This document shows positions 3,590 through 55,020 of a DNA stretch of 64,000 bases, one piece after another; the first letter of the stretch is position 1, and each line of letters begins with the position of its first letter. Location: assembly GCF_036669915.1 (NCBI RefSeq), contig NC_089315.1, positions 16,671,003 to 16,735,002 on the forward strand, given 5' to 3'. The notes beneath the pieces were generated by a model. It made no database searches and was not told where the DNA came from. It saw only the letters and a program-made list of their open reading frames with translations. The position numbers and the translations under genes are program-made. Source of the stretch: Pocillopora verrucosa. Taxonomy: Eukaryota; Cnidaria; Anthozoa; Scleractinia; Pocilloporidae.

Positions 3590-4183
3590 TCAAAAGCGAA
3601 CAAGTATGCAGCAAGCATTTTGTCTTTGGAGGGCCATCTCCTTACTTACATCTCCATTCGATTTTGGTAATGGACAAGAGATTGTTTCCCTTTGTTTACT
3701 GGCCAGGCAGGCATCAACTTTGGAAGACCATGCCCCAGTGTTTCCAGTATGCCTTTGGCAAGAAAACAACTGTTGTCATTGACAGTTTTGAGGTGTTCAT
3801 TGAAAGGCCACCAAACTTCCTTGCCAGAGCAAACTTTTTCTAGTTAAAAACACCACAACACTATGATTCTTGTTGGAATAACCCCACAAGGAACAATTTC
3901 TTTTGTTTTGGAAGCCTAGGGAGGTCGTGTCTCTGACAAATTTGTAACTGAGAACTGTGGTTTCCTGGAAAAGCTTCTTCCAGGAGATATGGTGATGCTC
4001 AGACAGAAATTTACAATTCTGGAGGGTACACTGCCAACTGACTATCTGATATCTAATCATGAAAACTGCAATCGCCACACTCCAATGGTGGTTCCATTAC
4101 AAATAGTTGTGTTGTGTATGATTGAAGATAAATTTAGAAACAAAGACACATGGAACTCTCCAGAAATGTGGATATTCCAATAA
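3590..4183 (+). pseudogene. Decayed THAP/DDE4-type transposase (ISL2EU/IS4EU-like)
   Basis: At about 3,604 the frame reads [13 protein letters not shown], which resembles the C-terminal CxxHF part of a THAP zinc finger. At 3,769-3,810 it reads [13 protein letters not shown], matching the first catalytic block of DDE_Tnp_4 transposases. After a stop at 3,841 another frame gives LVGITPQGTISF, then GGRVSD, then [13 protein letters not shown], the family block that normally continues into the second catalytic Asp. Here the usual ADRGF-like residues read LRQKF, so the catalytic site is gone. There is an in-frame TAG at 3,917-3,919 and at least one frame change. The family assignment rests on several collinear motifs recalled from the DDE4 family. 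The element is clearly dead. Confidence 0.72.
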
Positions 4184-4189
4184 ATATTT

Positions 4190-5216
4190 TTAATATACTA
4201 TACCATTTGTTTAATTTTTAAAACTTGGATGCTACAGTGCAATACAAAAAATGGTGAACTGAAATATGCCTGAAATGTTACTGCGAACATTGCTTATTGC
4301 TTCTTCATCAAATTGTGTTATATCCAGAATACCCTAATAAGGTTAGTGCTAATTGAACAAGACCCACATGCCTTATTTTGGTGTTAAGGTGTTCACATAC
4401 ATTGTACTGTAAATAGTGAAATAATATTGCATCTGATGACTGAGGAATTCTCCATGAGGGTGTCAACAATATACCTCAAACCCTCATTCTTTAAAAAAAA
4501 AATGAAAAGCCTTATGTATTGCTCTTGAAAATAGCTTTCTAGGCCCTCTGCATAGTTCAAAAGCATGGGTATCCTAAGAAGAATATTCTTTTGCGATTCT
4601 GGATTTTTTTCACTCAAAGTACCCATAGAACAACGTATTTGAAAGAGGGCACTATAGAGATGGCACTTTATTTGCATGAAATTTCACACTTAAGATGAGC
4701 ACCAACATGGCAGATTGTTAATTTGCATAACTGTATGACGTCAGCTGCAAACCAAGAATAGGACATACTTCCAACCATTATATTTGCTGGACAATCACCC
4801 CCACTCCCTTCAAGTCTGGGCCTTGCTGTCAGCAGTCTAGAGCAGGTCTGTTAAAGGTTACTTAAGTTTGATAGGAGGAAACTTTGTGCAGACAATCTTG
4901 CTGACCGTATTCGTAACCTTCTTCAGAAGTAATTGCTAGCCAGAAACAAAATTTGTCTTTTTACTCAAATAACCCCACTCTATCTTAATTAGCAATGAAC
5001 AATGACTTTTTCATGCATTTCATTTTGGAAAGTATCCCAAGAATTTATTTAAACAAATCATGGCTGATAAATACTTGGTACCCCCCTCTAAAAACAATAG
5101 CAAAATCACTTGTTTATTGAGTTACCTTCAATGCTGCTCCTTTTAGAGTGCTTTCATGGTTAACTGATGATAGCCTTCCATGATTTAACTATTGAAAAAC
5201 AGCTGTGTGAAGAAAT
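4190..5216. other. Intergenic DNA, nothing recognised
   Basis: No supported gene. A palindromic TGACGTCA octamer (CRE-like) sits at 4,736-4,743, but one octamer alone does not make a promoter. Confidence 0.4.
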
Positions 5217-8200
5217 TATGGTGAAGGTCCACTTTGCAGAATTGACACAACCATCAGCTCATCGGCAAAGCAGCAATCCTTTTGATTTAATATCACCATA
5301 GAATCAGTTGTTTTACCAACAGAGAAAAGAGCTCTTTCAACACAGTCCAAAATTTCTGTAAAGGAAACACAAAACATGTTAGGATATTGTCATCACATTG
5401 TCCATGGAGCTCATCAAGTTATGGTGTGAAAATATTTTCTAATATAAGGTAAAGCCCATTTACATCAGAAAAAAGATAAAAATCAAACCGTTTAAAAAGT
5501 GTTCTGCTAATGAAACATCTAACCTCTTCACATCCCTACCCCTGGATTAATGTGCCAAATCTGATTTTGGAAAAATCCCAACGACATATTCATGAAATAC
5601 TCTACATCCATAGATTAGCCTACATGCGTTTTGTCTTGGAATTATCCCTAAATACTGCAAAGAGACCATCACATACACAACCAGCACTGTTAAGGTATAG
5701 AGAAAATCTTTCATTCCAAGATCCTTTTTACAAATTCTCCTTAAACTTAAGTTATCTGACATCCTACATGTGTTTTGTAAAAGAATTATCCCTACATGTA
5801 AATACTGCAAATTAAGCATTACAAACATTCAGACACCAGTAGGGTACTGCATAGAGAAGGAGAGGAGATCTTTTTTCACAAAATCTCCATAAATTTCAGT
5901 CACCTGACAACCAATTGTTTAGGTTCATAATTACTTAATCAAGGGCACAAAAAGGCTTACCTATGAAGCAGTCTCTCCTTGCTCCCCATTGTCTATTGTC
6001 AGTTCACCATTGAATACAATTTTAACATGGTCATTTGCACCTCCTTGCTGATTTTATTGAGTCTGTTAAACATCTTTCCACATGTGCCTCTGTCTGATGT
6101 TCATTCTGACTGGTTCTTTAAGACTCACATTGTTGAGCAACCCATGGAAGATATCCTGGATCCTTTCCTTAGTCTTGGGCTGAGTAACCTGTAGGGTTGG
6201 ATCTATGATGCAAACTTCTCTTCCTTCATCCACACAATCTGAATTTTGTTCCTTTCCATCACTTGGTATATTGTTCACCTGAATGAAACATCTTTCCACA
6301 TGTGCCTCTGTCTGATGTTCATTCTGACTGGTTCTTTAAGACTCACATTGTTGAGCAACCCATGGAAGATATCCTGGATCCTTTCCTTAGTCTTGGGCTG
6401 AGTAACCTGTAGGGTTGGATCTATGATGCAAACTTCTCTTCCTTCATCCACACAATCTGAATTTTGTTCCTTTCCATCACTTGGTATATTGTTCACCTGA
6501 ATATAACAGCATGCATCTGCTTGTTCTGCTATGGTAATTACAGGAAAAAAGAGAAAGTATTATGTGGGACACTCCAGATCATTGTTGCCAAGGATGATCT
6601 CAACTGTATGTAATACTGAATCTTTACTTGCAGGGTCTGTCCTGGACACCTGTTCCTTATCATTTTTCTGTGTTTTGCCATCATTTCAACCAGGATGATC
6701 TTCCCACTCATTGTAACTTTTTTAAACACGATTGGTAACTCAGAGAACAAAAAGTCACTTTACAGGCAACAAAAACATATTGAACTGGTTGTACAATTTA
6801 CTTATATCTTCTCTATGTTTTTCAACCCCCCTGTTGTGCCAGGTGAATTCATCACTTCCGTCTGGTCAGGGAAGAGCAGAATAAAGTCTTAACCTTCATG
6901 TATCCTTTTTCATGATAAGTGTGTTTTGTTAGAGCTTCATTGTGAATCACATCAGCAGTGCCTGTTGACTTTTCATTCACAGGTAACATTTTTCCTTGGC
7001 ATCACTTCAGGTTCAAGCTCCTGAACAAGCAATTAAAATATGGTAATGAATATTGGTGCATCTTTGTAGGTATAAACAACTTCACAAAAGAAATGTCCAG
7101 AGACAAGCTTAGCCCTTACATTCTAAAATCTGTTGCTTAATTTCCATCCACACTGTTCTCTACACATTTCTTTCTTTTCTGTGTGATGCAGGTGTGATAT
7201 TATAAGGAGAAATTACATGTAGATGCTGACACTTTTAGGGGTTAAAGGAACTGCACATACCAGAAAGTGATAAGGCAAAAAATAAATGTACTGTAGGTTA
7301 GTTCATTGTCTGTATATTTTCAATACATATGACAGGAAACATTCAGAGCAATTTAAATGTTTCTTCACTCTAACTTGTTCACTCTTCTCTATTGTTTGAA
7401 TGTGTGCAACTGTTCTAATAACTTGCGACAAACAACAGAAACAAAAAATCAGCATGGATGCCATGTTATTTCTTAAGTGAATAAATGCATTCTGATGATG
7501 ATTTCCTTTAAATCACAAGTTGTCAAAAAGAACCCAAGAATCAAAAGGAGCTGCTTCTACAGAGATCTTTCACATCACAGACAATCTTATCACAATTCAC
7601 TAATGCTACAAATCCCTTCAATCAGCCACTCTTTTGTTCACCTAATAACATACATTTCAAATAATTGTCATTGTTGTTGGCTATATTGGCACCTACCTTT
7701 GGTGTTTGTTACGCAAGATCTCCTGGTTCAGTACTGTTATTATTCCAGTTGCTGTAGACTGTTATTGTGATCTTTGAGGTATTGATATTTTAAAGATTCA
7801 TTCTGATGTTCAGTGATATTTTTGGTGTTGATATTGACCATAAACCTGTGCTGTCTGAATGCCCACATTCATCACTAAAATGGCAAAGAGCAAAGATCAC
7901 ATGTCGGCATATCTGATCACTACATTATGCTTATTAATTGAAGCAATTCCTTTACCCTTACCTAAAAAAATTAATAATGAAATAATTCAGAGTTTCCTGC
8001 TCAAGAAATATATGCATAGTAATAATGTTATACATGCACACCGGAGAAAATGGTTGGAACAGAGGAATTAGGAGTTATGATTTTTCTCTTCCTCTCCCTA
8101 TCCTTAGTTGACGCATATCACTCTTGAGTTCTTCAATTAAATCTGTGATGTCAAACCATGTTACTATCAGCAGTGCTAAGCCATGTAAACAGAGTGAAAT

Positions 8201-21799: not shown

Positions 21800-24700
21800 A
21801 TGTCTGAGGACAAAAAGACCGTGGTTCTAGCCTACAGTGGAGGTCTTGATACATCTTGTATCTTGCTTTGGCTCAAAGAACAAGGGTATGAAGTTATTGC
21901 ATTCATGGTAAGAGGAATTTGTTTCGTGATAATCACGGGATAACGAGTCGCTCGATCTATTCGAAGCTTATCATTTTATACTGTCTCGGTAAAATTTATT
22001 TTCATTGAATCCGATTGTCTGTTCGATGATTTCGACGTGAACAAGACAACCCGTCTTGATTTGAGTTTTTTGGACTCATGTGGTGAGCTTTATGACTCCT
22101 GGGTGCAATATGCAAATTATTAGGAATTGAAATAAAAAATTGTACAGTAGCTGAAGTCAAGCGTGAGTTACGGTGACCTAGAGAAACAATAAACTTATTC
22201 AATTCTTTCGAAATGACCTAATTATGCTGTGATATTGACCAAGTCTTCCTAGATTCAAGTTTTTTGATTCAATTGTCGTTTTTTCTCAGGCAGATGTGGG
22301 ACAAGATGAAGATTTCGAGGAGGCGAGGGCGAAGGCCACAAAACTGGGCGCAAAAAAGGTCAGCGATAATCCAAAGTTGCCCTGAATTGCCACGTAATAA
22401 TAGGTCTTTTTTATGAAAGATTACATGTATTTATAATGATAACGCACCGTGAAGTGTAAACTAAATTTTGATTTCGATTCACTCGACGTTGGTAAAATTA
22501 GTTTCTCAATGAAAGCATTCAGAAAAAGATATTTCTTGGAGGATGCAGTACAAAGCCATTTTCCAGAGCTTTGAATTAAAATTGAAACCCTTTTGTGGGT
22601 GAACTAAGCTATCGTACGTTTGCCCAAAAAACCGCATTTTTTAGTTTGAGTAAGGATGGGTTTTCTGTAATGGAAATTATGGTAATTGAAAAGATAAATA
22701 AAGATTTATTGATCTTCTTTGCCAGGTGCCTTAAACAAGCGCTTTTGGTACACCAGTTTCACTTTGTGTAAACTTTCAGAAATTTGATTTAGTTTACACT
22801 TTTTCTTGGTTTTTACTTAAATATTGCCCAATTGTAAATTCTATATTTACCAGAGTCAATATTAGTTAAGAATATTAGAGTATCTGGTGGGATGTTTTCT
22901 TCATAAATAATTAGGAATCCTTAATTTTGGGGTTTTTATAAGTATAAGTTTTTGTGTCATTTGTGAAAATCTTGTGGTTATGTGCATGGTCTTGCAGGAT
23001 TTAAATTAAAAGGCTCTCTTTCAAAGGATAACAAACATTTTTTCATGACCACCATAACAATAATTGGGTCTAAATGATCTATTAATTTTTTTCTGGAGGT
23101 TCTGAAAACCAATTAGAAGTAAATCAAATGGATTTAATAAAAGCCCATGGGAGGGGGGGGGGAAGGTAGGCTTGATTATCAGCTGCTTTTCAGGAAATGA
23201 GCCATCCCTCCCTCCTAAATCAAGTGATGATTGAAGACTGAGCAGATGAAAAGGGTAGAAATCAAGCTAAGGAGGGAAAGTGTGCACTCCCTATTTCAGC
23301 CCAAACAGGTGTACGCTACCAAATAGGGCATGGTTTTTAAGTCATGAGTTTTAACAGGTTATCCAAACTCAATATTTATTGTCATGAATAAGATGTCTTA
23401 TCAGGCCAGAAGTCTTGAACAGGATGTAAAATGAGGGTGGTGCGCGGTCTCCATCCCTAGTACTAACAATTTTTTCAAACCTAATTCCCAAAAATTCTCA
23501 ACCTACCTAAATCAGGTTGAATTGCGGTAATCTGTAACAATTTTTTGCTGTGATTAGGGTTATGAAACTAGTGGATTTTGACTTAACCATTTATACCCTT
23601 ATATCAGCATGTATATTCTCCATACTGTTCTCTATACATTTCCTAACAAGCTGACAAAGAGAATTTTTATACCAATCAAGAGCTTCTTTAGTTGGTGATC
23701 ATTTCCTTTATTCTTGTGAGATTAATATTTGATTCAGTGATGATATTGTAAGGAGAAATTAGATGCTAGTCGCTCCTAGGGGTCAAAGGGTTGAATAAGG
23801 TCTGAACTGAGGGATCGCAGTTGTACCCTTATCCCACCTTAACCCCCTCAACCTCCACCAGGGACAAATTGAGGGTGTTGAGAACTTTTAACTGATCTTA
23901 ACATCTTGGAGTCTTTTCAAATAAGTTAATTACAAAGTCCTGTATTTAGAGCTCATTGGTATCTTACACTTGTGGTGGTTTTGGGTTCAGTGTAACTTGG
24001 ATTTGAATCCAAGGGTCTCTTACCATCCTGTTGGGTCCTGGATTGTTTCACTGCTTCCCCTTTTTGCCTTACTGCTACTCAAAGTCTGAATACAAATTTA
24101 TCCCTTCCCCACAACTTCTTCCACAATCGAATATTTACATGTATGAAAACAAATTTGATCTTGGCCCTTACAGAGGGAATACTTGAAGATTAGAATCTAA
24201 TTATCAGACTCTTTTCTCACTGAATTGTTTACCTGCAATAATGTTTTTTGAATGGCAGCTATAAAACATCATTTTCCAAACATGAAGTCGTTATGTACAA
24301 TAGCCCTTGAAAAGCGTATTTTTTCCAATTTGTACCACAGGTGTTTATTGAGGATTTGAGAGAGGAATTTGTCAAAGAGTTCATCTTTCCAGCTGTACAA
24401 GCTAATGCAATTTATGAAGATCGCTATTTGATGGGAACAGGTAGATGTTATATTGACTTTTTACTTGGTGTTGAATTCAATAAAAATCTCCAAAAAATTA
24501 CTTTTACAACTTCTACTTCAACAATTTCTTTGTCATAGCTGTTGCCAGGCCTTGCATTGCTCGTCGTCAAGTCCAGATTGCTCTTCGTGAGGGTGCAGAA
24601 TATGTGTCCCATGGTGCTACAGGAAAGGTAAAATTAGGATAGGTAATAACATGATTTCAAGTGCAATTTTGTGTTGATAAGCATGGGTAAATTTTTCAAA

Positions 24701-27700
24701 GATAACAAAGTTGCACAAGCTCGTAGGTCAAGTGCAATTTGTAGTATTTGAAAAATGTACAAATGTTTATAACACCAGATTACAAGAGAAATCATGTTAT
24801 ATTTCTTGTTAATAATGTACTTGAAAAAACATCACAGAGAGTCAAGGCAGACAAAATTTTGAAAGCATGTTTGCTCTATTTGTAATTTGCACTTGAGTTA
24901 CAACTTTGTATTCATGTTACAACTTTGTGCTTGTGTTACATGAGAATGCATTTGTTTTCAGCTGATCAGAAACGCATAATTTTTTTTATGTTTATTACAA
25001 GATCCCTTTCAGTGAAGGTTGTTGCCATCTTTGCAGCCATGTTGGAATCAAGGGTTTTTTATCAGTTGGAACCATAAAAATACCCAGTGATCCCAATTTT
25101 GTAGCTTGAAGCTGTCATCAAATCAAAATGATTTGTTTTGCCACTTTGGTTCAAGCATTTACTGAATGTACATGTTGTCTGTAGTCTGTGTTTTCACAAC
25201 TTTCTTTAAATTGTTTGATGTAACATTGAGTTGAAAATACATTATTTTTTTACCTAGTGCTAATCAAGGAATTGTAACCTTAAGTACTTGAAGAACCAAT
25301 AACTTTCACTTGACTAATGGTGACTTAATTTATGAATTTGTTTAACAGGGTAATGATCAAGTGCGTTTTGAGATGACTTATTATGCACTGTATCCAGGGG
25401 TTAAGGTGGGTTGAAAGCTAAGCATTGACATTAAGGTTTACCTATTTAACAGATGTATGTCTGTTCAGTAATGGAACACAAGAGGCAGCTGAATATGTCA
25501 CCTGCAGGAAAACTACCAAAACTCACAGAAAAACTACTTCAACTTACAATATAAAAATGGAGTTTGTTTTACAAAAAATGTCTTCCACTAAGAAATGTTG
25601 AATTAAGTGATATATTGAGAATTGAAAAATATTCTTCATGAATATTTAAATTTGGCTCTCATGATGAGGTTGTTATCTTTGTGCCTGATGATATAACTGG
25701 TACAGGGTGTGGTGAAGAATACATGTTTTCAAATCAGGCAAAATTCTAGTACTTTTTCAATATTATTACAATAGCAATTATATCATTTTTGAATCCACAG
25801 GTTATTACCCCATGGAGACTTCCAGAATTTTACGACAGATTCAAGGGAAGAAAGGACCTGTTTGACTACGCAGAAGTAAACATTACTTTACTTTACAAAG
25901 TTACTTTTCTCTTTCTTAGTACTTGTGTGTGTAAAATGAGTAAAGTGTCAAATTTATGATTTGAATCCCATTAACCATAACAATTTTTATCAAAGTAATT
26001 GAGAACACAGTTAATTTTCAGCCTTTTTCAATTTTGCTTGTTGTAAGCATTGCATACCAAGACCCAGTTGTATAAAGGATGGATAACACTATCCTGCAGA
26101 TAAATCACCATCCAGCTGAAAAGTGATAGCAAAATGTACCGTGGTATCCTCACGATAGAGATTTATCCAGTGCATAGCATTATCCAAGTTTCAAAGAACT
26201 GGGGCAAGATGATTAACTTGTTTATAATTTCCTGCAGCAAAAAGGCATACCATTACCAGTCACCCCAAAGAAGCCTTGGAGTATTGATGCCAACCTTATG
26301 CACATAAGGTGAGTTTTTTACCACAAAATTAAGTTCTGTAAAGAGTTTCTATGGTGATGTTTTGAGCCTTAGCCCCTCATTAGAGCAAAGAGAAGAGAAG
26401 TTCTGTAAAGTTTACTAATAATTTAAAATATAATTAGCTGAATATGACCTTAGTTGTTTTACCCAGTTTTTGAATTGCTAAACTTCATGTGGATATCACA
26501 TTACTATTATGTATTAATTACTGTCATCACTTGTTTTGTTCCAGTTATGAATCTGGAATTCTTGAAAACCCTAAGGTCAGTGAGTGTTTATTGATCAATG
26601 GGTTCATGGTACTTTCATCTTTATTTTTGAAGATATTGACTCAAAGGAAGCTTAAGTTATCTTTTCTGTTGGGAGAAAAGATTAGTGAGCTTCCCTCAAA
26701 CTGGATTGTAACATTTTGAGCCCTGTGTCTTTCTAAGGCCACTGTCTTGTGTTTTTGGGTAAGGCACTTGATATTGCCCGAGTACTAATTCCTCAGGTGG
26801 CTCAGTCTTCTATTGAAACCTTACGTCTTTGTAACTAAAACCTGCTTTTTCCTTCTCAGACCATGGCTCCAGATGACCTTTACTGCTTTACAACTGATCC
26901 AAAATCTGCTCCTGATGAGGTAAGCTTTTAATGTTTCTTGTTTATAATCATGAATTTCCTTAACACGGACTTCTTCAATGTATCATGCAGGTGAAGTGCT
27001 CTCATTTACATTTTGATCAGGAGGCAAAGGGTTTTATACATGATGCATCATTAAACCCAACATTTATTCTGTTAGCCTTGGCAAGTTGGGCTTCCTGGTT
27101 AAAATATTATTATAATTATTATTATTATTATTATAATTATTATTATTATTATTATAATTATTATTATTATTATTATTTCATCATAAGTTTTATCTTTGCT
27201 TATCTTCTTTCATCAGCCAGAACAGCTCGAGCTTGAGTTTAAGAAAGGTAAATATTTTCAAACTATACTTATAAAATATCCTTCCTTTAAGCATTGTTTT
27301 AAATGAATGTTCGTCTTATAAAAGTAATTTTTAATAAATATTTCATGTAATTATTTGATTCTCATTGGTTTGAAATTGACATAAGGCATAACTCTGAGCT
27401 GTCAGATCACTTTGAGGCTGACTTTCAGAGAAAACAATATTTAACTAAAGGTCTGGAGGTCCTGAGGTCTGTTTATCAGTGTGAAGATAAGCTGGTAACC
27501 TGTGAAGTCAGAAAGCAAGGGCACAGGGGAAAGAAGAGCCTCGGACAAAGCCAGAGAAACTGACCTTGTATGGATGTCCTTGAGCTTTCGTTTCATAGAT
27601 TTCTTTTGACATGCGCAAATAACTTTGCTGTCCTAAGAGTCTCAGCTACTTGTCCAAGGGACCTGTTTTTTTTTAAAGTTTTTTTTTCTAACTTGAAGCA

Positions 27701-37429: not shown

Positions 37430-37433
37430 AAAC
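37430..37433. repeat. Left 4 bp target-site duplication AAAC of the 8.1 kb element
   Basis: AAAC immediately precedes the left inverted repeat and recurs right after the right one (45,560-45,563). The paralogous site in copy 2 has a single AAAC (54,185-54,188). Confidence 0.8.
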
Positions 37434-37469
37434 AACGCTTTCCGAACTATTTTTTATTTTCCAAAATAG
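37434..37469 (+). repeat. Left terminal inverted repeat of the 8.1 kb element
   Basis: 36 bp; compared with the reverse complement of 45,524-45,559 it differs at positions 7, 11, 14, 21 and 23. Similarity stops abruptly after position 36. Confidence 0.85.
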
Positions 37470-37648
37470 CCTATTTTTTGATAAATCAATAGTTTTCCTC
37501 TGCATGTTTAGGAAAACTAGGAAAATTAATCAAATTTTGCACACAAAATCTTAAAAAGATTAAAAGATCTTATTTTCCCCTGCAAGATTGAGCATGTCCG
37601 TAAAAAACTGTGTTATGAGTCAACCGTGGAAAGATGCAGAGGTAATCT

Positions 37649-38098
37649 GCAACCACTCAGTAAATGGATATTAAAGAAATTCTGCAACCAGTCACCTGAT
37701 GTCACAGAAATTCTGTAACCACTCAGTCACTAGATGTCACAGAAATTCTGTAACCACTCAGTCACAAGATGTCACAGAAATTCTGCAATCACTCAGTACC
37801 ATGTTGTCACAGAAGTTCTGCGATCACCCAGTCACAAGTTGTCGCAGAAATTCTGCAACCACTCAAGCACTGGATGTCGCAGAAATTCTGTGATCACTCA
37901 GTCACAAGCTGTCGCACAAATTCTGCGACCACTCAACCACTGGATGTTGAAAAAATTCTGCGGTCACTCAGTCACAAGTTGTTGCAGAAATTCTGCGACC
38001 CCTCGGTCACAAGTTGTCCCAGAAATTCTGTGGCCACTCAACTACTGAATGTCGTAGAAATTCTGCGATCACTCAGTCACAAGTTAAATTCTGCAACC
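37649..38098. repeat. Left minisatellite array, 35 bp unit, about 13 copies
   Basis: Consensus parts: cactcagtcacaagttgtc then gcagaaattctgc then gac. The core GCAGAA-A-TTCTGC is a 13 bp palindrome with an A in the centre. Units differ at several positions, and the array begins about 215 bp inside the left end of the 8.1 kb element. Because 35 is not a multiple of 3, the same peptide-like reading appears in all three frames; these are not genes. Confidence 0.95.
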
Positions 38099-38762
38099 AC
38101 ACAACACATAAATCATTATGCCGCAATCCCAGTACATGCGTGTTCTAAAGCATCGTTACTACGCATGTGTCACGACACTCTATGTAACTTTACACAAAGA
38201 GTTAAGCCCAATTTCAGAAAGGAATGGAGTCAAGGAAAAAATTACAGATTGATTTGTCCTCAAAGCAGCATATCTTTCCTTGAGAAATTTTCTTGTTGAT
38301 GGCATTAGCTTGTTGTCTTCCGTTAGCTCAAATGAACTGCACACTACACAGCTCTTAGGAAGGATCTCCACCCATGGTCTAGATTTTTGTCGGGAACATG
38401 CTGAGGAGTCCATTTTCCATAGTAAGTACCCTTCCAATAATGCACCTTAAAATTGTCCTCCTCGACGGCCAGGACCTTTCCAATGCAGGGAAGTTTATCG
38501 TAATTAGCTGTACATAGCCACAAAGCAACTGACTTGAAGAGTAGCGAGGAAATCGTCTACCATTTCAATAGGCGCTTCCCTTTCCCTCGGGGTCCTGTAA
38601 CGACCTGTGTAAATCTGAAATATTCAACAGACATGTCATAAGAATTTGCTTGTTTAGGTGCGTATTTCGACTGAGATGTATCAGTTATCAATTGTTCTTA
38701 TCATTTTTTCATTATTTGATTAATTATAAGTAATGGATTATGTAACCGTGTCATATTCTATT

Positions 38763-39060
38763 AGTGCAATTTGGTGTGAATAAGCACAAATAAGTTTTCC
38801 AAAGACAACAAAATTTTTGCACGAGCCTGAAGGGCAAGTAAAATTTTGTGGTATTTGAAAAATTTACAAGTGCTTGGTAGACCATATTGCAAGAAAAATT
38901 TAGGTTATTACTTGTTAATAATGTACAGACAAAATTTTGAAAGTGTGTTTGCACTATTTGTAATTTGCACTCATGTGACAACTTTGCATTTGTGCTACAT
39001 GAGAATTAACTTTTTTTCAGCCACTCAGAAGCATGTAATTTTATCATGTACATTATTATA
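38763..39060. repeat. Interspersed repeat, copy 2
   Basis: Matches 24,660-24,990 in ASS1 intron 4, same orientation, with small deletions. It sits inside the 8.1 kb element. Confidence 0.8.
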
Positions 39061-39193
39061 TATCTAAAATTGGACTTGTGTAATCTATAACTGGATGCAG
39101 AAGGGATTAGAGTAATGGACCCCTCTAATTATTTCTCTTTTATATCTGTAGGACCATTTGAAGGCTTGGCTTTTTAGTGCCCATTGCTGCATT

Positions 39194-40238
39194 TTAATTA
39201 TTATTCACCTCTGTGATAGGCTGGATCTCCTCCTCTCTGAGCTCTAAAAGTTCATGTGGGAGTTCACCATTTGAGGCTAAAACAGTCCTTGGAGTATTCT
39301 TCAATTTATCCACTGGCCAAGTGTAGTTGTCAGGTACTGATAATAGATTAAACTCTGTTTTTTCTAACCAGGATTCCCACTCTTCAGATGCTTTTAAGGG
39401 CGTATTCTTGGGATATTTGGTGGGAATATGTCTCTTCAATCCCTCCATGTCCAGTTTATTTAGGGAAGGAGTCACAGGATTTGGCTTTCCTGAGGGTAAA
39501 CTCTAGTGTGGCAAAAAAAGACAAACAATGAATTTGATATATGAAAGCTCACAAGGCAGCCAGGTGGACAATCAAACATGGTTTGATACTATTCTGGTTT
39601 AAATATTTAATAACTGTAACTTCTCTGTTAAATTCAACAAAATTAATCTCTAAACCAGAGTAGCATCAACCCAAGTCTAATAATATATTTGTTGGCTCAA
39701 ATTTCCTTGACAGACATTAATGAGTGTTTTCTCTTTCCATTTCATTCTTCTTTGACTTATACACATTATGGTCCCAATCTTAAAGACAGGGAAAAGCAGT
39801 GAGATACATTTTAAGTTGAGGATCAATTTAAACCCAGCATATTCTTAACATGTAATGTCAGCAAACATTCAGTTATTTGGAGCATTAATGTTATTTTTCA
39901 GGCCTATAAATTGTCAGTGCCAATGCTACTTCAGAAAACATCAGGTAAGCTTTTAAGTTACTGTTTTAACTATGACTCAGGAACCACAGATTAAGAATTT
40001 CATATGCTAACCTTCAGCATTATAATGGGCTCTTTCCATGGCTCATGGCTCCAATTTCTGTAGTGCATAACTGCTTTTCCATCCTCATTCGATGTAAATT
40101 TGAAACACTTTGGAACTGTGTGTTCATGTAACTCCTCACAATAATCACTAATCCATGATTTTATATCATAAACCATCTTGAGCATATAGGGCTTAGGTGT
40201 TGGATTCTTCATGCATGTTTCCAGTGCCTTCAGTAATT
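39194..40238 (-). CDS. Unidentified gene in the 8.1 kb element, last two exons
   Basis: Exon 40,238-40,012 is entered after CACTTAG in phase 1 and leaves at ATGCTGAAG|GTTAGC in phase 0. It reads LLKALETCMKNP, then KSWISDYCEELHEHTVPKCF, then WSHEPWKEPIIMLK. Exon 39,502-39,194 follows CACACTAG, reads SLPSGKPNPV, then WESWLEKTEFNLLSV, and stops at 39,194-39,196. That makes 178 residues of a C-terminus with several Trp residues and no frame damage. Upstream exons toward 40,500 are not resolved, and no start is proposed. I do not recognise a domain. It is divergent to the methyltransferase-like gene, with about 340 bp between them, so they could share a promoter. It is the best candidate for an element-encoded protein. 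Confidence 0.55.
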
Positions 40239-40578
40239 CTAAGTGACAGTGAAGTGTAAAATAAATTAAGATCTTACATATCCTCTGTAAGTAAACATTT
40301 ACACAAAATTTATAACATGTCAATGTCACATTTAATCTGTTAATTAAAGTGGAAGAGTTCACACTTTCTAAAGACTAAATTTTGAACCATGCTCTTGCCT
40401 CATGCAGATATTTTTTCCATCATAGTGTTAGTTGCAACGTATTTATATTGATAGATAACTTATATGAATATTTGCCACACAAAATTACCACATTGCACAG
40501 GCAGTTTTGATTGTTGGACCTCTCAGTTACTCCAACTGTACCTTGAAATAATTACTTTATGTTACAACTTTAAACGAT

Positions 40579-42795
40579 TTGCATGAAAATGCCCAGTTAA
40601 AGGGACAGAAAGCTAAAGCCTTGGACATTGTTAAGAAGGGGAAACCTGTGCTTAGGCAGTGGCAGTTAAAACCCCTCTGCAAGTTGTCCCTAAAAGACCA
40701 AACGTTTCTCCTAAAAAAGGTCAGATATCTGCTACATTGTCCCATAAATCATTATAAAGTGTATCATGTCTTCAAATTTGTATGAAATGTATTAATTCAA
40801 TTGTTCAATTTTATTATCATTATGATCATCACGATCATCATCAAGAATGTATCTCCCTGAACTTTTCTTTGCTCTTTTAAGCTCTGTGGTTGAAGAGAGG
40901 TTTCTTACTTTCAGAAAAATAGTGAAGATGTGAATGCTGATTATCTCCGCTTGTTTTTATTCATCGTTTTTAGGTGGCAACTTGTGAGTTAAGCCTGGAA
41001 GAGATGAAATTTTCTGCTTCCGAAGTAAAATCTCTCAGACCTGTCCAGGAGGCCATCGTTAAATTCTTCAAGATCAGCACATGGGAAGAGGCTATTGACG
41101 AATTTAAAAGCGCCGTATCATCTGAAAAGTTGTTGCAGTTTGCTGTAAGTTGACATGTAGTAGTACGTACCTCAGTGACTTATTTGACTGACAATTTTTC
41201 TGTTTACACTGTAGTTAAATTATGTCATATTGCCCTTCTGAGGCGATTTCCCTTTTGAAGTTAAATATTTCAACTTCCCCATAAAATTTCCTTCATTTCT
41301 AGATATTATGAATTCCATCCCCTGAGGAAAAAAAAACCTTCGTTTCGGATATTCAGTTTTAGAATCGATGCATGGAGCAAATACTGGTCGATGTACTTAG
41401 TTATTCGTTCAATATCTCGCAGGGAAAAGATTTTGAACAGACTAATGAGTTCCAGAAATACTTGCAACTTTTAAAAAGAATACGAACAGGAGAGGTCATT
41501 GAGACGGCCGACCTCATAGAGGGAAAAATGGGAGCATTTGGGCTCGTAGTATTTAGCAACAGCCTTTTAGACGTACAACAAAGTGATCTGGCAAAGTTGC
41601 CACTTTACGAGGGAGCGTTTTTAACCGTAGGTGAAGCAGGGGAGCAGTGCAAGGTAAGATTAAAATCTAGGTGAGAGTCTCCCGCTACCGTTCGACTATC
41701 GAGTGACTTGGAAAGAAATGAATTAAAGTGACGAGGCATTGTTATTTTAATTGCCCTTGTTAGCATAAGATGTTATGTTTCTTTTCGCCTTCCGTTGTTT
41801 TAATTTTCCGAAAAGTTTCATCTTAACCAGGAAATTTTATAAGATAAGTTAAATGAACTTAATATGAATATTTACTTCATTTTTATGATAAAAAATCATG
41901 TTACGTTCCAGTTAGGCTGAGAACGGCAGGGAAAAATCGCCTTTAACGAATACATGCAGGATTTTACTACAATCCTAATCAATCCTTCTGTTTTTTGTGG
42001 ATAACTTTTAGTTGTTTGCATTTACTTATTACGATTCGTATTTTTCTCTTCACAGAATCCTGATGATGAAATAAGTACTGTTACCCGCATTAATTTCTGT
42101 AAGCTCACATCATCCAACGTTGTTTTATTTACAATGGCTGAAGGTGTGAAAAATCTAAAAGAAAAAATGTTAAAAGAGGGCGCTACACTGGTACAGCATG
42201 GCTACTTTTACGTCCCAAAAAACCTCAAACTGCAGTGCAAGGTAAGATACTTCTAGAATTAAACAACTGTCCTCAGAAGAAAGTTTTAAAAACTTCATAG
42301 TCAACAGAATTGAATTATTTGATTTACTTGTGGAGTTAACAAAAATATATAGTTCATGATTCTATAATCTGGACTTGTTTTGAACTTTCTCCTTGAGAGC
42401 GTATTACATGCACAGTTTATAGTAAGGTTTGGTGAATTAAAACGTTCCAGCACTGTCGAAAGAAATTAGTAAGTGTATAATACGCATATATCATATTGTT
42501 GATACTCATTTTAATTTTTTTAGGTCCGTATTTATAGGAAGCCTTGGAAACCTTTGTTGTTGGACACTGGTCTGTCTCAAGGCAAATGACCTCGAGACAT
42601 TTGTCCGCCAGTAGAGAAAATTTGATTTTCTTGAATAAAGAAAGTTCATTCCCAGCACAAGGCTACACATGGCTTGTAGAAAACCTCTCCAGAGAAGGGG
42701 ACGTGGTTATTGATGCTGGAACCCCCAATGGCTATGCAATAGTGGCTGCGTTGAGGAAAGGGCGAAGCGCAGTTAGGATAGACAGTACCGCTTAG
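40579..42795 (+). pseudogene. Methyltransferase-like multi-exon gene with an internal frameshifting deletion
   Basis: Exons, all phase 0: up to 40,719 (start unresolved; open from about 40,552), 40,974-41,144, 41,423-41,653, 42,056-42,241, and 42,524 onward. The first four are fully open with good GT/AG borders. The fifth reads VRIYRKPWKPLLLDTG and then stops at 42,587-42,589. From 42,544 an overlapping frame gives SRQMTSRHLSASRENL, then LVENLSREGDVVIDAGTPNGYAIVAALRKG, and stops at 42,793. DAGTPNG resembles motif I (DxGxGxG, SAM binding) of class I methyltransferases and the preceding text resembles a DNA-methylase-type lead-in, but the second and third Gly are altered. A deletion has probably joined the two frames. 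The rest of a methyltransferase fold is missing; the sequence decays after 42,795 and a transposon is inserted at 42,956. The function call is tentative. Confidence 0.5.
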
Positions 42796-43178
42796 CCTTC
42801 CGAACAGGCAGCGATAGAGACTAAAATTTGCAGTCTTGTATCTTCCTAGTTTATATGTCAATGACAATATACTAGTTAAAATAAACAATTCAATTGACAT
42901 AGTTCATGTCAGCAAAAATTTTTTGGAGAAAAGGAATGTTGATTTTATTTCATCCAATACGCCTCACGCAATAGACCGATCCAAGGTTATCGACGCCATA
43001 TTTCAAAGGGTGCAAAACCACTGGGGCGAGCGCGCGGCCAAACATACTCTGCAGCGCGAAAACAAGCTGTTCTGTGTTTGCTACTTCCTAGTTTTATTGA
43101 TTTTTTAACGTTGAGAGGTTTTGATATTATTCAAAAGGTATTACTTGCCATACTTGAGCATTTTCTACGTTTTTGCCG

Positions 43179-43535
43179 ATGCCGAGACTAGCAGAAGAAA
43201 AGCTTGAATATCAAGACTTTTTGAACTGGACCCTGACTTCGTTGAAAGATTTTTTAGCACTTCGAGGATTGAAACAGACAGGCAAAAAAGCCGAACTTGT
43301 GGCGAGAGCATTCGGTGCCTACTAGCTGAAAGCACCTAAGAAGTTTTCTCAAGAAGAAATTGACAGGAAATTGAAAGAAGAGTACCAACAGAGACTAAAA
43401 AAAAATCGGATAAACACCGACCCCAATTCTATTCAGAAAGAAGACTGGAAGGAAAACGTCCATGAATGGCCAAATATAGATGATGGAATGCTTTTTAGCT
43501 ACATCTTAAGAGTGAAAGCAGTGGATGTAGATTAA
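43179..43535 (+). pseudogene. SAP-domain protein, N-terminal part of a transposon nuclease gene
   Basis: From ATG 43,179 the frame reads MPRLAEEKLEYQDFLNW, then the SAP helix pair LKDFLALRGLKQTGKKAELVARAF. SAP motifs bind AT-rich DNA. A TAG at 43,323-43,325 ends the first part. The same frame then continues open (APKKFSQEEIDRKLKEEY, then WKENVHEWPNIDDGMLFSYIL) to TAA at 43,533-43,535. In cnidarian genomes, as I recall, such SAP leaders precede SWIM/YqaJ-type domains; none is present here. The 3-prime end overlaps the THAP ORF by 30 bp in convergent orientation. A pseudogene because of the internal stop and truncation. Confidence 0.7.
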
Positions 43536-43967
43536 ATGTAAATCATCGTGATCTAGATCATCTCCCTTGTCAGCCCGCCTCACAGTCCCCTCCGCAGTTG
43601 TTACTTCATCTTCGTTTTCTTCGCTGGCTAAACGTTCACTAACTTTGCGTTTTTTTGGCGATGGCTTGTTGAGAAAGTCGCTTAATGTTAAGAAAACCGA
43701 AGGATAGTCAGTACTTGGATTGTGGCGAGTTCTCGTGCCCTCAGGAAAGTGATTTGAACAGACAAATGTGCCCTCCGATCCAGGTTCGGGATTGAAGTTA
43801 TCACTCCGTCCTTTCGCGACTTGTTTCCTCCACAATTCAGCTAAATTTGGGTCTTTTGGCCACCTATGGAATTTCAATTCTTTTACGTGAGATCTCACAA
43901 CCAGTAAGTTGGGAAATCGCTTGTCGTTATCACAAAATCCAACACAACAACGCGCGTGTTTCGGCAT
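43506..43967 (-). CDS. THAP-domain protein, truncated transposase N-terminus
   Basis: ATG at 43,967 opens MPKHARCCVGFCDND, giving the first two Cys ligands of a THAP finger. LKFHRWPKDPNLAELWRKQV supplies the conserved Trp-containing helix, FVCSNHF the CxxH pair, and a later YPSVF stands where the family AVPtyF box is expected. 153 residues in all, ending in an acidic linker with no DDE domain. THAP fingers bind the ends of the parent transposon or host promoters. The reading frame is intact, so the protein could be made, but it lies inside a deletion derivative whose start region is within its own inverted repeat. Confidence 0.75.
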   Translation of the reverse strand: MPKHARCCVGFCDNDKRFPNLLVVRSHVKELKFHRWPKDPNLAELWRKQVAKGRSDNFNPEPGSEGTFVCSNHFPEGTRTRHNPSTDYPSVFLTLSDFLNKPSPKKRKVSERLASEENEDEVTTAEGTVRRADKGDDLDHDDLHLIYIHCFHS

Positions 43968-44354
43968 GGTAAATGCGTCGCCATTAGTTTGGCCGCGCGC
44001 TCTCCCCAGTGGTTTTGCACCCTTTACAAAATGGCGTCGAAAACCTTGGATCGGTCTATTCAATAATAGTGGCGTATTTTATAGCCAATATGTTGAGTTG
44101 ACAAGAAACGTCATTTTTGTTAATGTAAGTCTGCTTTGTAAGTTGAATTACCTACTCATAAAAGCTATGGGTCCCGTTAGGAGCCCTTAGATTCCAACCG
44201 TGAGGTTCCTTTCACTTGCTTTATTTAAAAGCATGCAAAAAGCGGCAGGATGAAGAGTATTGTTGATTTTATCTCGTATATAGAAAAACATTAAAAAACT
44301 AGAGTTGAAAATGACAGTATAGATTAGGACCCTCAAAATTTCCTATCTGAAACT

Positions 44355-45124
44355 ACTGCAGAATTTCTACAACGCTAAACGTAACATCGTGCAGAATTTC
44401 CGCAGCACTTGACGGTACATCGTGCAGAATTTATGCAGCACTTGATGTTACATCGTGCAGAATTTCTGCAGCACATGACGGTACATCGCGCAGAATTTCT
44501 GCAGCACTTGACGTTACATCGCGCAGAATTTCTGGAACACTTGACGTTAAATCGTGCAGAATTTCTGCAGCACTTGAAGTTACATCGTGCAGAATTTCTG
44601 CAGCACTTGTAGTTACATCGTACAGAATTTCTGCAACACTTGACGTTACATCGTGCGAATTTCTGCAACACTTGACGTTACATGGTGCAGAATTTCTGCA
44701 ACACTTGACGTTACATAGTGCAGAATTTCTGCAGCACTTGACGTTACATGGTGCAGAATTTCTGCAGCACTTGACGTTACATGGTGTAGAATTTCTGCAG
44801 CACTTGACGTTACATCGTGCAGAATTTCTGCAGCACTTGACGTTACATGGTGTAGAATTTCTGCAGCACTTGACGTTACATGGTGTAGAATTTCTGCAGC
44901 ACTTGACGTTACATCGTGCAGAATTTCTGCAGCACTTGACGTTACATCGTGCAGAATTTCTGCACCACTTGACGTTACATCATGCAGAATTTCTGCAGCA
45001 CTTGACGTTACATCGTGCAGAATTTCTGCACCACTTGACGTTACATCGCGCAGAATTTCTGCAGCGCTTGACGTTACATCGCGCAGAATTTCTGCAGCAC
45101 TGGACGTTATCCAATGCAGAATTT
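44355..45124. repeat. Right minisatellite array, 33 bp unit, about 23 copies
   Basis: The unit is gcagaatttctgc followed by agcacttgacgttacatcgt. The core GCAGAA-T-TTCTGC is the reverse complement of the core in the left array, and an ACTTG follows it in both when the left array is read on the opposite strand. Units are more homogeneous than in the left array. Since 33 is a multiple of 3, long open frames with 11-residue repeats run through it on both strands (for example LTLHRAEFLQH); these are by-products of the repeat, not supported genes. The array stops about 435 bp from the right end of the 8.1 kb element. Confidence 0.95.
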
Positions 45125-45523
45125 TAAATAAACCGGGTTATCAGATTTTTTTAAATATTGTGTTCAAATCATAGACTTTATTGTTCATATATTAAATGTT
45201 CAGAGAATTTTGGGCACTTTCACCATGTTTAACAAACCATGCAGTGGAAAATGGAATATTTTTATGGGTAAAATGCCTTGACATTTAACTGTCCTTTGAA
45301 TTAAACAAAGTTTTGCCCTTTTGAAACGATTCTTTTCCTTTCTCCGTGAAAATCGAAGTATTTCTGGTGCTATCATTTATGAGACATTTCCGTGCTTTCT
45401 GCCTAGATAGTGCCACTTTGAAGTCACTCTTCCTCTAGGTCTATAAAAAAAAGGCGTTATTCAACATATTTTTGCGGAATTGACACTAAATTTACTCAAA
45501 TAAGCCATTTTTGGCGGAAAACC

Positions 45524-45559
45524 CTATTTTGGAAAACACAAAATAATTTGGAGAGCGTT
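45524..45559 (-). repeat. Right terminal inverted repeat of the 8.1 kb element
   Basis: 36 bp, 31 matching the left repeat in inverse orientation; it ends gagagcgtt. It is followed by the AAAC duplicate at 45,560-45,563. Confidence 0.85.
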
Positions 45560-45563
45560 AAAC

Positions 45564-52700: not shown

Positions 52701-53315
52701 TCACCTTTAATGTAAAAAAAATTGCAATTTCTTGAAATGTTTATCTACAACGTTGAACGGGCTTAAAAGTGAGCTTATTTTGAAGCGAACAAATTACAAT
52801 TTAAATTGAACCAATTACAATCTATCTTTATTGCTTAGGTATTGAATGAGGCGTTCGCAAAATAGTCACAGATTTTTTTCTTCATGCTCCTTCCAATAAC
52901 AAATTGTAAATTCTGAATTCGTCTCCAAAATGGGCAGACTTTCATCTGAGTTTAATTGGAAGGGAACCGACTTTTTATTCAAACTGAACCCACCACGACG
53001 CTTTTCTCAGCTTACATATAATATGAGGTCTTCTAACGCGTCCGCGAGAAAATCTGAAGTTTTTTCTTCATGCTTTTTCCGATAACAAATTCTAACTTAG
53101 TTTTGCTAAATGTATGACTTTAACGAAAACGAAAAGAGACCTCAAGCACGTGAAACGCCCACCTCATCCGCCATGATCCGTGCTCCGCGTAAGGCCTCCA
53201 AAGGCTCATGATAATTCTCAGTGGAACGACTACTGACATTGGCTTCTTCATCAAATTTTCTCGCAGAACAGGATTCCTTCACAGACTTTATGTCCTCTGC
53301 GATGTTTTTGTTCAT
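49708..53315 (-). pseudogene. Coiled-coil/NPF-repeat protein, copy 2: exon fusion and damaged first exon
   Basis: Exons corresponding to copy 1: exon 1 ending at 53,163, then 52,704-52,588, 52,500-52,440, 52,175-51,912, 51,479-51,324, a fused 50,942-50,043, and 49,760-49,708. Internal exons keep the lengths of copy 1 (117, 61, 264, 156 and 53 nt) and are open. A deletion joins FAEVE of exon 6 to IVPSGSQ of the next exon in frame, removing the last NPF repeat and the unresolved junction. In exon 1 the ATG equivalent to that of copy 1 (53,431) is out of frame because of indels; the first in-frame Met is at 53,315 (MNKNIAED). It might still be expressed from that Met, so pseudogene is the likelier reading but not certain. 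Confidence 0.6.
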
Positions 53316-53627
53316 TTTGGAATTGATTTCTCTTGAAAAACACAAAAATAGATTCTCTTTCACTTTGCTTGAATAAGAACCGAGTTCTTCACGCAAAAAC
53401 AACGTTTCGATTTGCTTATGACAAGTTGCATAGCAACGTGTTTGTGCCGTCACTTATTGACAACACGCCAGAGTTAAAGCGTTAAGCCTGGGCGCTAGAA
53501 TTTTGTCGAAGCGTCAAAAACCATATTTAGAAACTAAAACGGTTTTACAGCGATAAAACGTTTTAAAATTAAAATTGTTTTCAGCTTATTATTTGCTTTC
53601 CGAGACTTTTAAGGGAGCTTATCTTAA

Positions 53628-53813
53628 ATGCCGCTCATGGATTTTAACAATGATACATCGTTTCCTAATAACCTTTCATTGGTTCCCCTGGCCAAGATTG
53701 TAACTGATAACCTTTGTGGGGTGCGTGCATTTATTGAACGTGATGAACTCCATTTTGAAGCATCTTTGCCAAAATTTTTAGACGAGAAGAAGGATCTTCA
53801 CGATGTCTTGTAA
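53628..53813 (+). CDS. Small 61-residue ORF, block Y copy 2
   Basis: ATG 53,628 opens MPLMDFNNDTSF, continues LAKIVTDNLCGVRAFIERDE and PKFLDEKKDLHDVL, and stops at 53,811. The last 45 residues are matched in copy 1 with several conservative changes, although copy 1 has lost the start. It is divergent from the coiled-coil gene. It could be a first exon or a remnant; no family recognised. Confidence 0.3.
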   Translation: MPLMDFNNDTSFPNNLSLVPLAKIVTDNLCGVRAFIERDELHFEASLPKFLDEKKDLHDVL

Positions 53814-54184
53814 TACCAGACTGTCTTCTTCCGAGTTGGTTCGGGCTCCACACTTCCCCCATTCCCATTTCTCATGTTCTCCAGTCTCTCCTCTGTTCAC
53901 CTGTTCCTCTGTTTCTTTGTTCGTCTGTTCTCCTGTTATTACGTTTCTATGTTTCTCTGTTCACCTGTGCTCCTTATTTCACGTCTTTCATGTCCCGAGT
54001 AGTCTTCCCTTTCACGTTTTGTGTTTCCCATTTCCCGCTTTTCGTTGCCTCTTTCCTTAGCTATTTCTTTCCTCTTTTTCCTCATTTTTTTCCGCGACAC
54101 TATTCTTCCCTTCAATCCTATTCCTCTGTCCTTCTAATTTCTATTCGCCCACACAAAAGCGATGGGAAACAAATGCCAAAGAGC

Positions 54185-54188
54185 AAAC
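54185..54188. other. Empty insertion site (single AAAC) matching the 8.1 kb element
   Basis: gagcAAACataacagag continues without interruption where copy 1 has AAAC, the 8,126 bp element, and AAAC again. Confidence 0.8.
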
Positions 54189-55020
54189 ATAACAGAGTGA
54201 TAACTCGTGCAAAATATTTTCTCCTAGCTTTCCGAATGACGAAGTCAATTTAACTTAGTGTGTCACGCACTTTTTTTAATTCTATGGGGTGGTAAGGTTA
54301 GGTGCGGTGTTTTACCCGCGCATCTTTGCGAGAGTAGCTTATTCTGTCATCTTTCACTCAGATTTGTTTCTTTGTCTACCAACAATTTTCCGAGTCCTAG
54401 ATGGTTGTATTTGAGTTTAGTTGTATAATCATGGTAAACATGGGCTGAGCTGTTCTACTCACTTACACGAAGTCAGGATGGTCTGCATACGGCGTGTGAC
54501 TCAACATCGTCAAATATTGACGGTAATTTAATTTTAAAAAATTTGCAGTTCAAACTCAACCTCATCTACAATGTGAATCAAATTTAACGTTAAACCCATT
54601 CTGTGACTCTATATTCACCTTCTACTATACGATTTAGGTTGTCCTAAGATATCACAACTCGATCTTTAGGTGTAAGTGTTCTAAAAGAAGGCGTTTTTAT
54701 CCACGTTTGATTGAGGAAAATATTTTCACTGCTTCAAGGGTATTATGTTTGGCGCATGTATTGTAATGTTCACTCCAGTATGAATTCTAGTTTTCTGGTG
54801 ATTAACAAAGGTAGATTGATACTAATCATACAGTTATCATATGTAACGTAGATGAATTAAAGCTAATGTCCTCTGTAATTGTCAATTTTACATAGAAGTC
54901 ACCTTCCATTTTACACACGGGTACGTCATCTTTACGACTCTGACATTATTGTTGAATCCAGTCTTCATATCAACATCTGAAAACCATCTATTAACTGGAC
55001 CTTGAAAATTAACTTCCATT
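54189..55020. repeat. Duplication block Z, copy 2
   Basis: Same order as 45,564-46,372, with a roughly 60 bp difference near 54,290 and small indels. No gene supported. Confidence 0.9.

Follow-up and report, generated by a model that had tools for sequence, protein, structure and literature searches.

The window analyzed here, a stretch of 64,000 nucleotides from the coral Pocillopora verrucosa, contains a transposon of 8,126 bp at positions 37434–45559. The element is bounded by terminal inverted repeats (TIRs) of 36 bp, of which the left one (37434–37469, plus strand) starts with AACGCTTTCC and the right one (45524–45559, minus strand) is its inverted match; both are found genome-wide. The two ends agree at 31/36 positions; when the 300-bp regions at both ends were dinucleotide-shuffled, the best of 300 pairs agreed at 25/36. 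Exact copies of a 4-bp target site duplication (TSD), AAAC, lie immediately outside the ends at 37430–37433 and 45560–45563. A paralogous segment at 53176–54290, which is 84–87% identical, provides the empty site, as the alignment is continuous across the insertion point (near 54185) and holds one AAAC. The 8.1-kb block is most simply an insertion younger than the local segment duplication. Both the TIRs and the AAAC duplication with its empty site at 54,185 had been proposed in an earlier reading of this DNA (hereafter the sequence-only reading), and both are borne out.

The assembly searched (G000) comprises 353 Mb in 52 contigs, and the window corresponds to C4:16671003–16735002. The left 127 bp as a query gave at least 28 matches, among them the window itself, and the right 127 bp likewise gave at least 28; because the TIRs resemble one another, some matches of the two queries are identical termini. 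A TIR consensus allowing up to 3 mismatches was found at 48 sites, 10 of them exact, and the reversed-pattern control at none. Convergent pairs among these 48 termini define nine complete elements including that of the window, where 0.03 pairs would be expected on random placement, with lengths of 1,174, 1,339, 1,428 (two elements), 1,458, 2,158, 3,834, 5,394, and 8,126 bp. Second copies with the same ends, on which the sequence-only reading had staked its proposal, thus exist. Four of the complete elements, on contig C6, have common flanks and appear to be duplicates of one insertion. The copies differ in divergence, and some ends are only 77–82% like those in the window. Inverted ends common to independent copies are what a cut-and-paste DNA transposon with TIRs should have, and a duplication of constant length with an empty site was found as well, although its recurrence among the copies is incomplete.

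This recurrence was examined in 13 pairs of ends, counted as seven independent complete loci. A second exact duplication, ATCT (4/4), flanks the element at C11:9647069–9652462; agreement at 4/4 has a chance of about 0.005 per locus. The tally over the seven loci is two at 4/4, two at 3/4 at best, and three at 1/4 or 2/4. Locus L023 has 3/4, with a right TIR of only 28/36, and the members of the C6 cluster (L020, L021, L026, L027, L028, L030, and L031) have 2, 2, 2, 3, 0, 3, and 3 of 4, respectively. A search for an empty site of L024 matched its flanks in the genome only at their own place. AAAC as a fixed target sequence was rejected, the other exact duplication being ATCT, and we conclude that the family makes a 4-bp duplication without a fixed sequence; in several copies this duplication has been lost or was never present. 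The predicted recurrence of the TIR with AAAC therefore holds for the TIR and, once, for the length of the duplication, but not for AAAC itself.

The left half of the element carries the C-terminal part of a DUF7869 gene (PF25273) on the minus strand. The exon at 40012–40238 encodes the C-terminal third of the domain (E value 7.9e-13, profile positions 124–191 of 192) and scores 48.9 bits against a curated cut-off of 26. It is followed by an exon C-terminal to the domain at 39209–39502, with the GT/AG splice borders of both exons read by eye, and by the last exon region at about 38183–38556, with an exon-like piece near 38347–38556. A frameshift was read by eye in this last region, which matches no Pfam family by itself but has a homologous stretch in another copy, L013. 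The sequence-only reading had described 39,194–40,238 as an intact-looking gene that it could not identify and as not a known transposase. The first description has to be replaced, as these are exon-like pieces of the C-terminal part of the DUF7869 gene, and the second is wrong or unproven. The profile search that it recommended did find a family; that family is labelled as a domain of unknown function, and its role as a transposase is a prediction.

The exons lost from the window copy are retained in L013 and L041, and the homology of the window element to these two copies, which bear the predicted transposase, ends at the breakpoint 40564–40565; the catalytic exons are absent from the window copy. 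In L013, an open frame of 266 amino acids (aa) matches profile positions 3–92 (E 1.7e-28). In L041, three exon pieces joined for the search cover positions 1–191 of 192 (E 4.9e-52, 176.8 bits), and two of them give E values of 2e-26 and 5.1e-11 when searched singly. The L041 exons contain DGIDQ, FDNC, and GHTHVDID, which, as read by eye, may represent the three acidic motifs of a DDD/E enzyme. DUF7869 is thus probably the transposase of the family. Comparisons between copies revealed a synonymous excess in the DUF7869 exons, with ratios of nonsynonymous to synonymous rates (dN/dS) of 0.16 (71 codons), 0.44 (71 codons), and 0.35 (103 codons). The catalytic part has two close matches in the assembly (86% and 100%), which are the L013 and L041 copies, and four weaker ones (41–70%) from other DUF7869 genes. 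Exon by exon, DUF7869 gave 36 matches in the Pocillopora genome and 0 in 14 control genomes, and none of the 36 places was seen near a family terminus except those in the window, L013, and L041. The other matches, on C11, C7, C10, C4, and further contigs, include stop-free frames of 594 and 450 aa (C4:3898786 and C7:12162177), and represent either other DUF7869 element families or host genes. Viral contigs were also searched with the DUF7869 C-terminal protein, the methyltransferase-like protein described below, the array unit, and motif patterns, and yielded nothing usable: several queries had no matching stretch at all, one pattern gave 17 matches, none confirmed, and another gave 4, of which a single one (L004, 66 aa) has the motif within an open frame. 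The motif strings were not found in the open-licence literature.

Inside the TIRs lie two tandem arrays. The left array (37646–38083, plus strand) has a period of 35 bp and about 12 units with the core GCAGAAATTCTGC, the first core being 239 bp from the end; the right array (44357 to 45109 or 45128, minus strand) has a period of 33 bp and about 23 units with the core inverted, and stops about 430 bp before the right end. The 13-bp core, GCAGAA-W-TTCTGC, is a palindrome whose arms are complementary about one central base, and this base is A on the left and T on the right, placing the cores on opposite strands. Outside the two arrays, no core was found in the window at up to 1 mismatch. The inverted arrays with their common core were likewise part of the sequence-only reading and are confirmed; both arrays recur in other copies.

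To follow the arrays through the family, we surveyed 27 fetched loci together with L041 and the window element, 29 sequences in all. These are not all independent: the C6 cluster accounts for seven of them, and L025 and L032 have a common flank. As 10 kb was fetched per locus, a missing array is uninformative where the other end lies beyond that distance. A 35-bp array (at least 3 units spaced 35) is present in 21 of the 29 sequences, duplicated loci included, and a 33-bp array in 11 by script, or in 10 without L036, whose units resemble left units reversed. Seven sequences have both (window, L013, L014, L022, L024, L033, and L039). Core-to-core spacing is 35 in 159/171 left-sense intervals and 33 in 79/91 right-sense intervals. 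The first core is 239–257 bp from the terminus in 16 of the 24 loci read from the left end, duplicated loci being among the 16; the exceptions are L015–L018, L023, L033, L034 (no core), and L036. In per-copy unit consensuses, the core has a mean of 1.98 (left) and 1.97 (right) bits and the spacer 1.59 and 1.42, respectively. Conservation values from pooled units are biased because the units were chosen by their core; when 81 right units were anchored on the spacer instead, the core had 1.65 bits versus 1.24 for the spacer. A different 60-bp tandem repeat (CAAACGGTGTAGCGTTGCGTGAAATGG...) was observed at L025 9502–9882 and at L039 1623–1844 and 2722–3044. A heat-shock-element reading of the core was rejected by eye, as the spacing differs, and the Colipase-like, CsmC, and apolipoprotein Pfam matches of array translations, all below their cut-offs, were taken as tandem-repeat artefacts.

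On the strand opposite to the DUF7869 gene, the element carries a methyltransferase-like gene at 40974–42795 (plus strand), in exon-like pieces at about 40974–41144, 41423–41653, 42056–42241, and 42524–42795. The sequence-only reading had listed such a gene in divergent orientation, and a gene does lie there, but it is broken in the window by a frameshift and a stop in its last piece, and its likeness to methylases is weak. PF01555 is reached with E 0.11, ranked under Lactamase_B with E 0.028, both below the cut-offs, and the best solved chain is 2zie with E 0.27. Pfam gave nothing for the first three exons, and inspection of the protein by eye revealed no catalytic motif. The domain exon has only 3 matches in the genome (window, C6, and C10), all of which lie 1.0–3.0 kb inside family right ends and point toward the right end; those of C6 and C10 lie in 122-aa open frames without stops, at 94–95% identity. 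Matches to exons 2 and 3 were confined to the family, and exon 1 also matched at two places on C2.

Two nested insertions, absent from the sequence-only reading, add to the interior. At 42955–44078 (outer limits by eye), inverted repeats of 74 bp at 93% enclose a 1.1-kb element with a SAP-domain frame on the plus strand (43179–43532, E 2.2e-8, one stop) and a THAP-domain frame on the minus strand (43506–44063, E 1.9e-7), which looks like a separate non-autonomous THAP-type element. P elements make an 8-bp duplication and encode a THAP transposase; a P-element reading of the THAP frame was rejected, as this frame belongs to the nested element, which is bounded by separate inverted repeats, and the outer duplication is 4 bp. 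A short repeat at 38763–39021, between the DUF7869 exons, has a second copy at 24660–24962; the two are about 76–88% alike and have an internal inverted repeat. In the L013 copy, an endonuclease/phosphatase-like stretch in the 3819–5556 region (PF03372, E 0.004, under the cut-off) suggests that a non-LTR retrotransposon has inserted there.

Around the element, the host segment is present in three tandem copies (window 30.2–37.4, 48.5–54.2, and 60.2–64.0 kb), whose aligned pieces are mostly 80–94% alike; a Pfam scan of five long open frames in or near these segments gave nothing over the cut-off. Exons of an argininosuccinate synthase gene (PF00764 and PF20979) lie on the plus strand at 22–29 kb, and at 6068–6502 a 218-bp unit occurs twice with 100% identity and is probably very recent.

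We consider it likely that 37434–45559 is a decayed, non-autonomous copy of a family of cut-and-paste DNA transposons with a probable DUF7869 transposase and paired arrays. In the mechanism that we propose, DUF7869 would be a DDD/E-type transposase with its acidic residues in DGIDQ, FDNC, and GHTHxDID, and the palindromic cores would be bound by DUF7869 or a partner protein as a dimer. The arrays, with 35-bp units on the left and 33-bp units on the right, could load many protein copies at each end, their different periods would mark left from right, and they may draw the ends together ahead of cutting at the TIRs. The parent element would most likely have had two divergently transcribed genes, DUF7869 on the left and the methyltransferase-like gene on the right, and the window copy would since have lost the DUF7869 catalytic exons, suffered the breaks in its second gene, and gained the SAP/THAP element. 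The family thereby places DUF7869, labelled only as a domain of unknown function, in a mobile element whose ends and 4-bp target duplication are defined. With one palindrome and two fixed periods kept across diverged copies, the roles of subterminal repeats in loading, end discrimination, and synapsis become directly testable.

Several observations weigh against this interpretation. Three of the seven independent complete loci lack a clear duplication (L014 2/4, L024 1/4, and L033 1/4). The C6 cluster and L023 have no 33-bp array, and therefore the pair of arrays may not be needed. In 228 spacer-anchored left units, the core has 1.15 bits versus 1.10 for the spacer, and its identity to the consensus (0.83) is lower than that of the spacer (0.89, with a degenerate consensus); about 30 of these units have the core out of register. 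The core is clearly conserved in right arrays and from copy to copy, but not evidently so within left arrays. An intact autonomous copy was not seen in the assembly, no relative of solved structure was found for DUF7869 (best E 0.79), and a search of open-licence papers gave none that names DUF7869. A wider claim, that DUF7869 represents a separate superfamily of cut-and-paste elements that make 4-bp duplications and have paired, asymmetric iteron-like arrays, and in which the methyltransferase-like protein without a catalytic motif would be an accessory acting on the arrays, appears improbable.

Among the alternatives, membership in the Sola superfamily (Sola1/Sola2), which would make the element a new family only, survives best, and its chances fall only a little short of even. 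Sola elements occur in cnidarians and aphids, which was counted in its favor. In the excerpt consulted, Sola2 is described as a cut-and-paste group with 4-bp AT-rich duplications, which AAAC and ATCT resemble, and with copies that have lost most of the transposase region and contain another gene (PMC3627910), as appears to have happened in the window. The TIRs reported there are 12–21 bp long, compared with 36 bp here, and paired palindrome arrays are not mentioned in that excerpt (PMC3627910). Among open-licence papers, none was found that joins Sola, Academ, Ginger, and Zator with a 4-bp TSD. The claim of the sequence-only reading that the element fits no known superfamily is therefore not established, given the 4-bp duplications reported in the excerpt for Sola2 (PMC3627910).

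A second alternative concerns the two-gene parent. The methyltransferase-like gene could be a captured passenger and not an original gene of the family, which we regard as a real but minority possibility. The homology of the window element to L041 is interrupted from 40564 to 44087, and L041 has no stretch of the methyltransferase-like gene. In the window, this gene occupies the expected place of the DUF7869 catalytic exons; in L041, these exons start only a few hundred bases interior to the right array, a space too small for the methyltransferase-like gene. Between the window and C6 copies of this gene, differences are not in excess at third codon positions (10/12/8 by position in 114 codons, dN/dS 0.83), and exon 2 of the C6 copy contains a stop. 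Against capture, the assembly yielded no host gene that could have donated these exons, and the domain exon is matched within the family alone, and exon 3 gives dN/dS values of 0.34 for window–C10 (3/3/3) and 0.29 for C6–C10 (4/4/6), but in only 46 codons each. Overall, these values provide no good evidence of selection on the gene either way. L041, in which no N-terminal exons were recognized, may itself be a deletion derivative, and two internal deletions of a two-gene parent can explain both the break and the absence of the gene from L041.

It is unlikely, though by no means negligible, that the arrays are ordinary minisatellites, derived from a single subterminal site of a longer inverted repeat that was expanded by slippage on each side and now hitch-hikes without function. 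The wide variation in unit number (3 to 32), the copies with one array only, and the small difference between core and spacer in the spacer-anchored left array fit this view. It is opposed by the periods of 35 and 33, which hold in copies whose ends are only 77–82% like those of the window, by a 13-bp core that is the same on both sides although it is set in different spacers, by the recurrent position of the first core (16/24 left-end loci, duplicated loci included), and by right units whose core exceeds the spacer in identity to the consensus (0.945 vs 0.879) even when anchored on the spacer. That two unrelated solo ends lie inverted by chance around unrelated sequence, as the complex interior with nested insertions might suggest, can be dismissed, being refuted by the exact duplication and the empty paralogous site at the same base and further opposed by the 8 other complete elements.

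Our preferred interpretation, a cut-and-paste family with paired arrays, has partial parallels among known systems. En/Spm-CACTA and Ac/Ds elements have many short transposase-binding sites within both ends, a feature resembled by the arrays, where binding is putative; those sites are dispersed motifs and serve other transposases with other duplication lengths, whereas here they form regular arrays with a distinct period at each end. In Foldback/Galileo-type elements, tandem repeats also lie close to the inverted ends, but there they form the long TIRs themselves, whereas here the TIRs are 36 bp and the arrays, of unequal unit lengths, lie inside them. No paper combining subterminal palindromic tandem arrays, a DNA transposon, and transposase binding was found among open-licence papers. 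Identity with the coral miniature inverted-repeat transposable elements was rejected, as the TTAA duplications given for them in the excerpt consulted (PMC2872659) differ from those of the element. A Pfam search of the six frames of the window element gave DUF7869 and, up to E 1, no family of the MuDR type. The MuDR-related Rehavkus, as described in the portion of the report consulted, resembles our element in having a minisatellite before its 3' TIR (PMC6446971). It differs in making a 9-bp duplication, in encoding a PHD-finger MuDR-type transposase, and in having the minisatellite reported on one side (PMC6446971), whereas the element described here makes a 4-bp duplication, which sets it outside that group, carries DUF7869, and bears arrays on both sides in inverted orientation.

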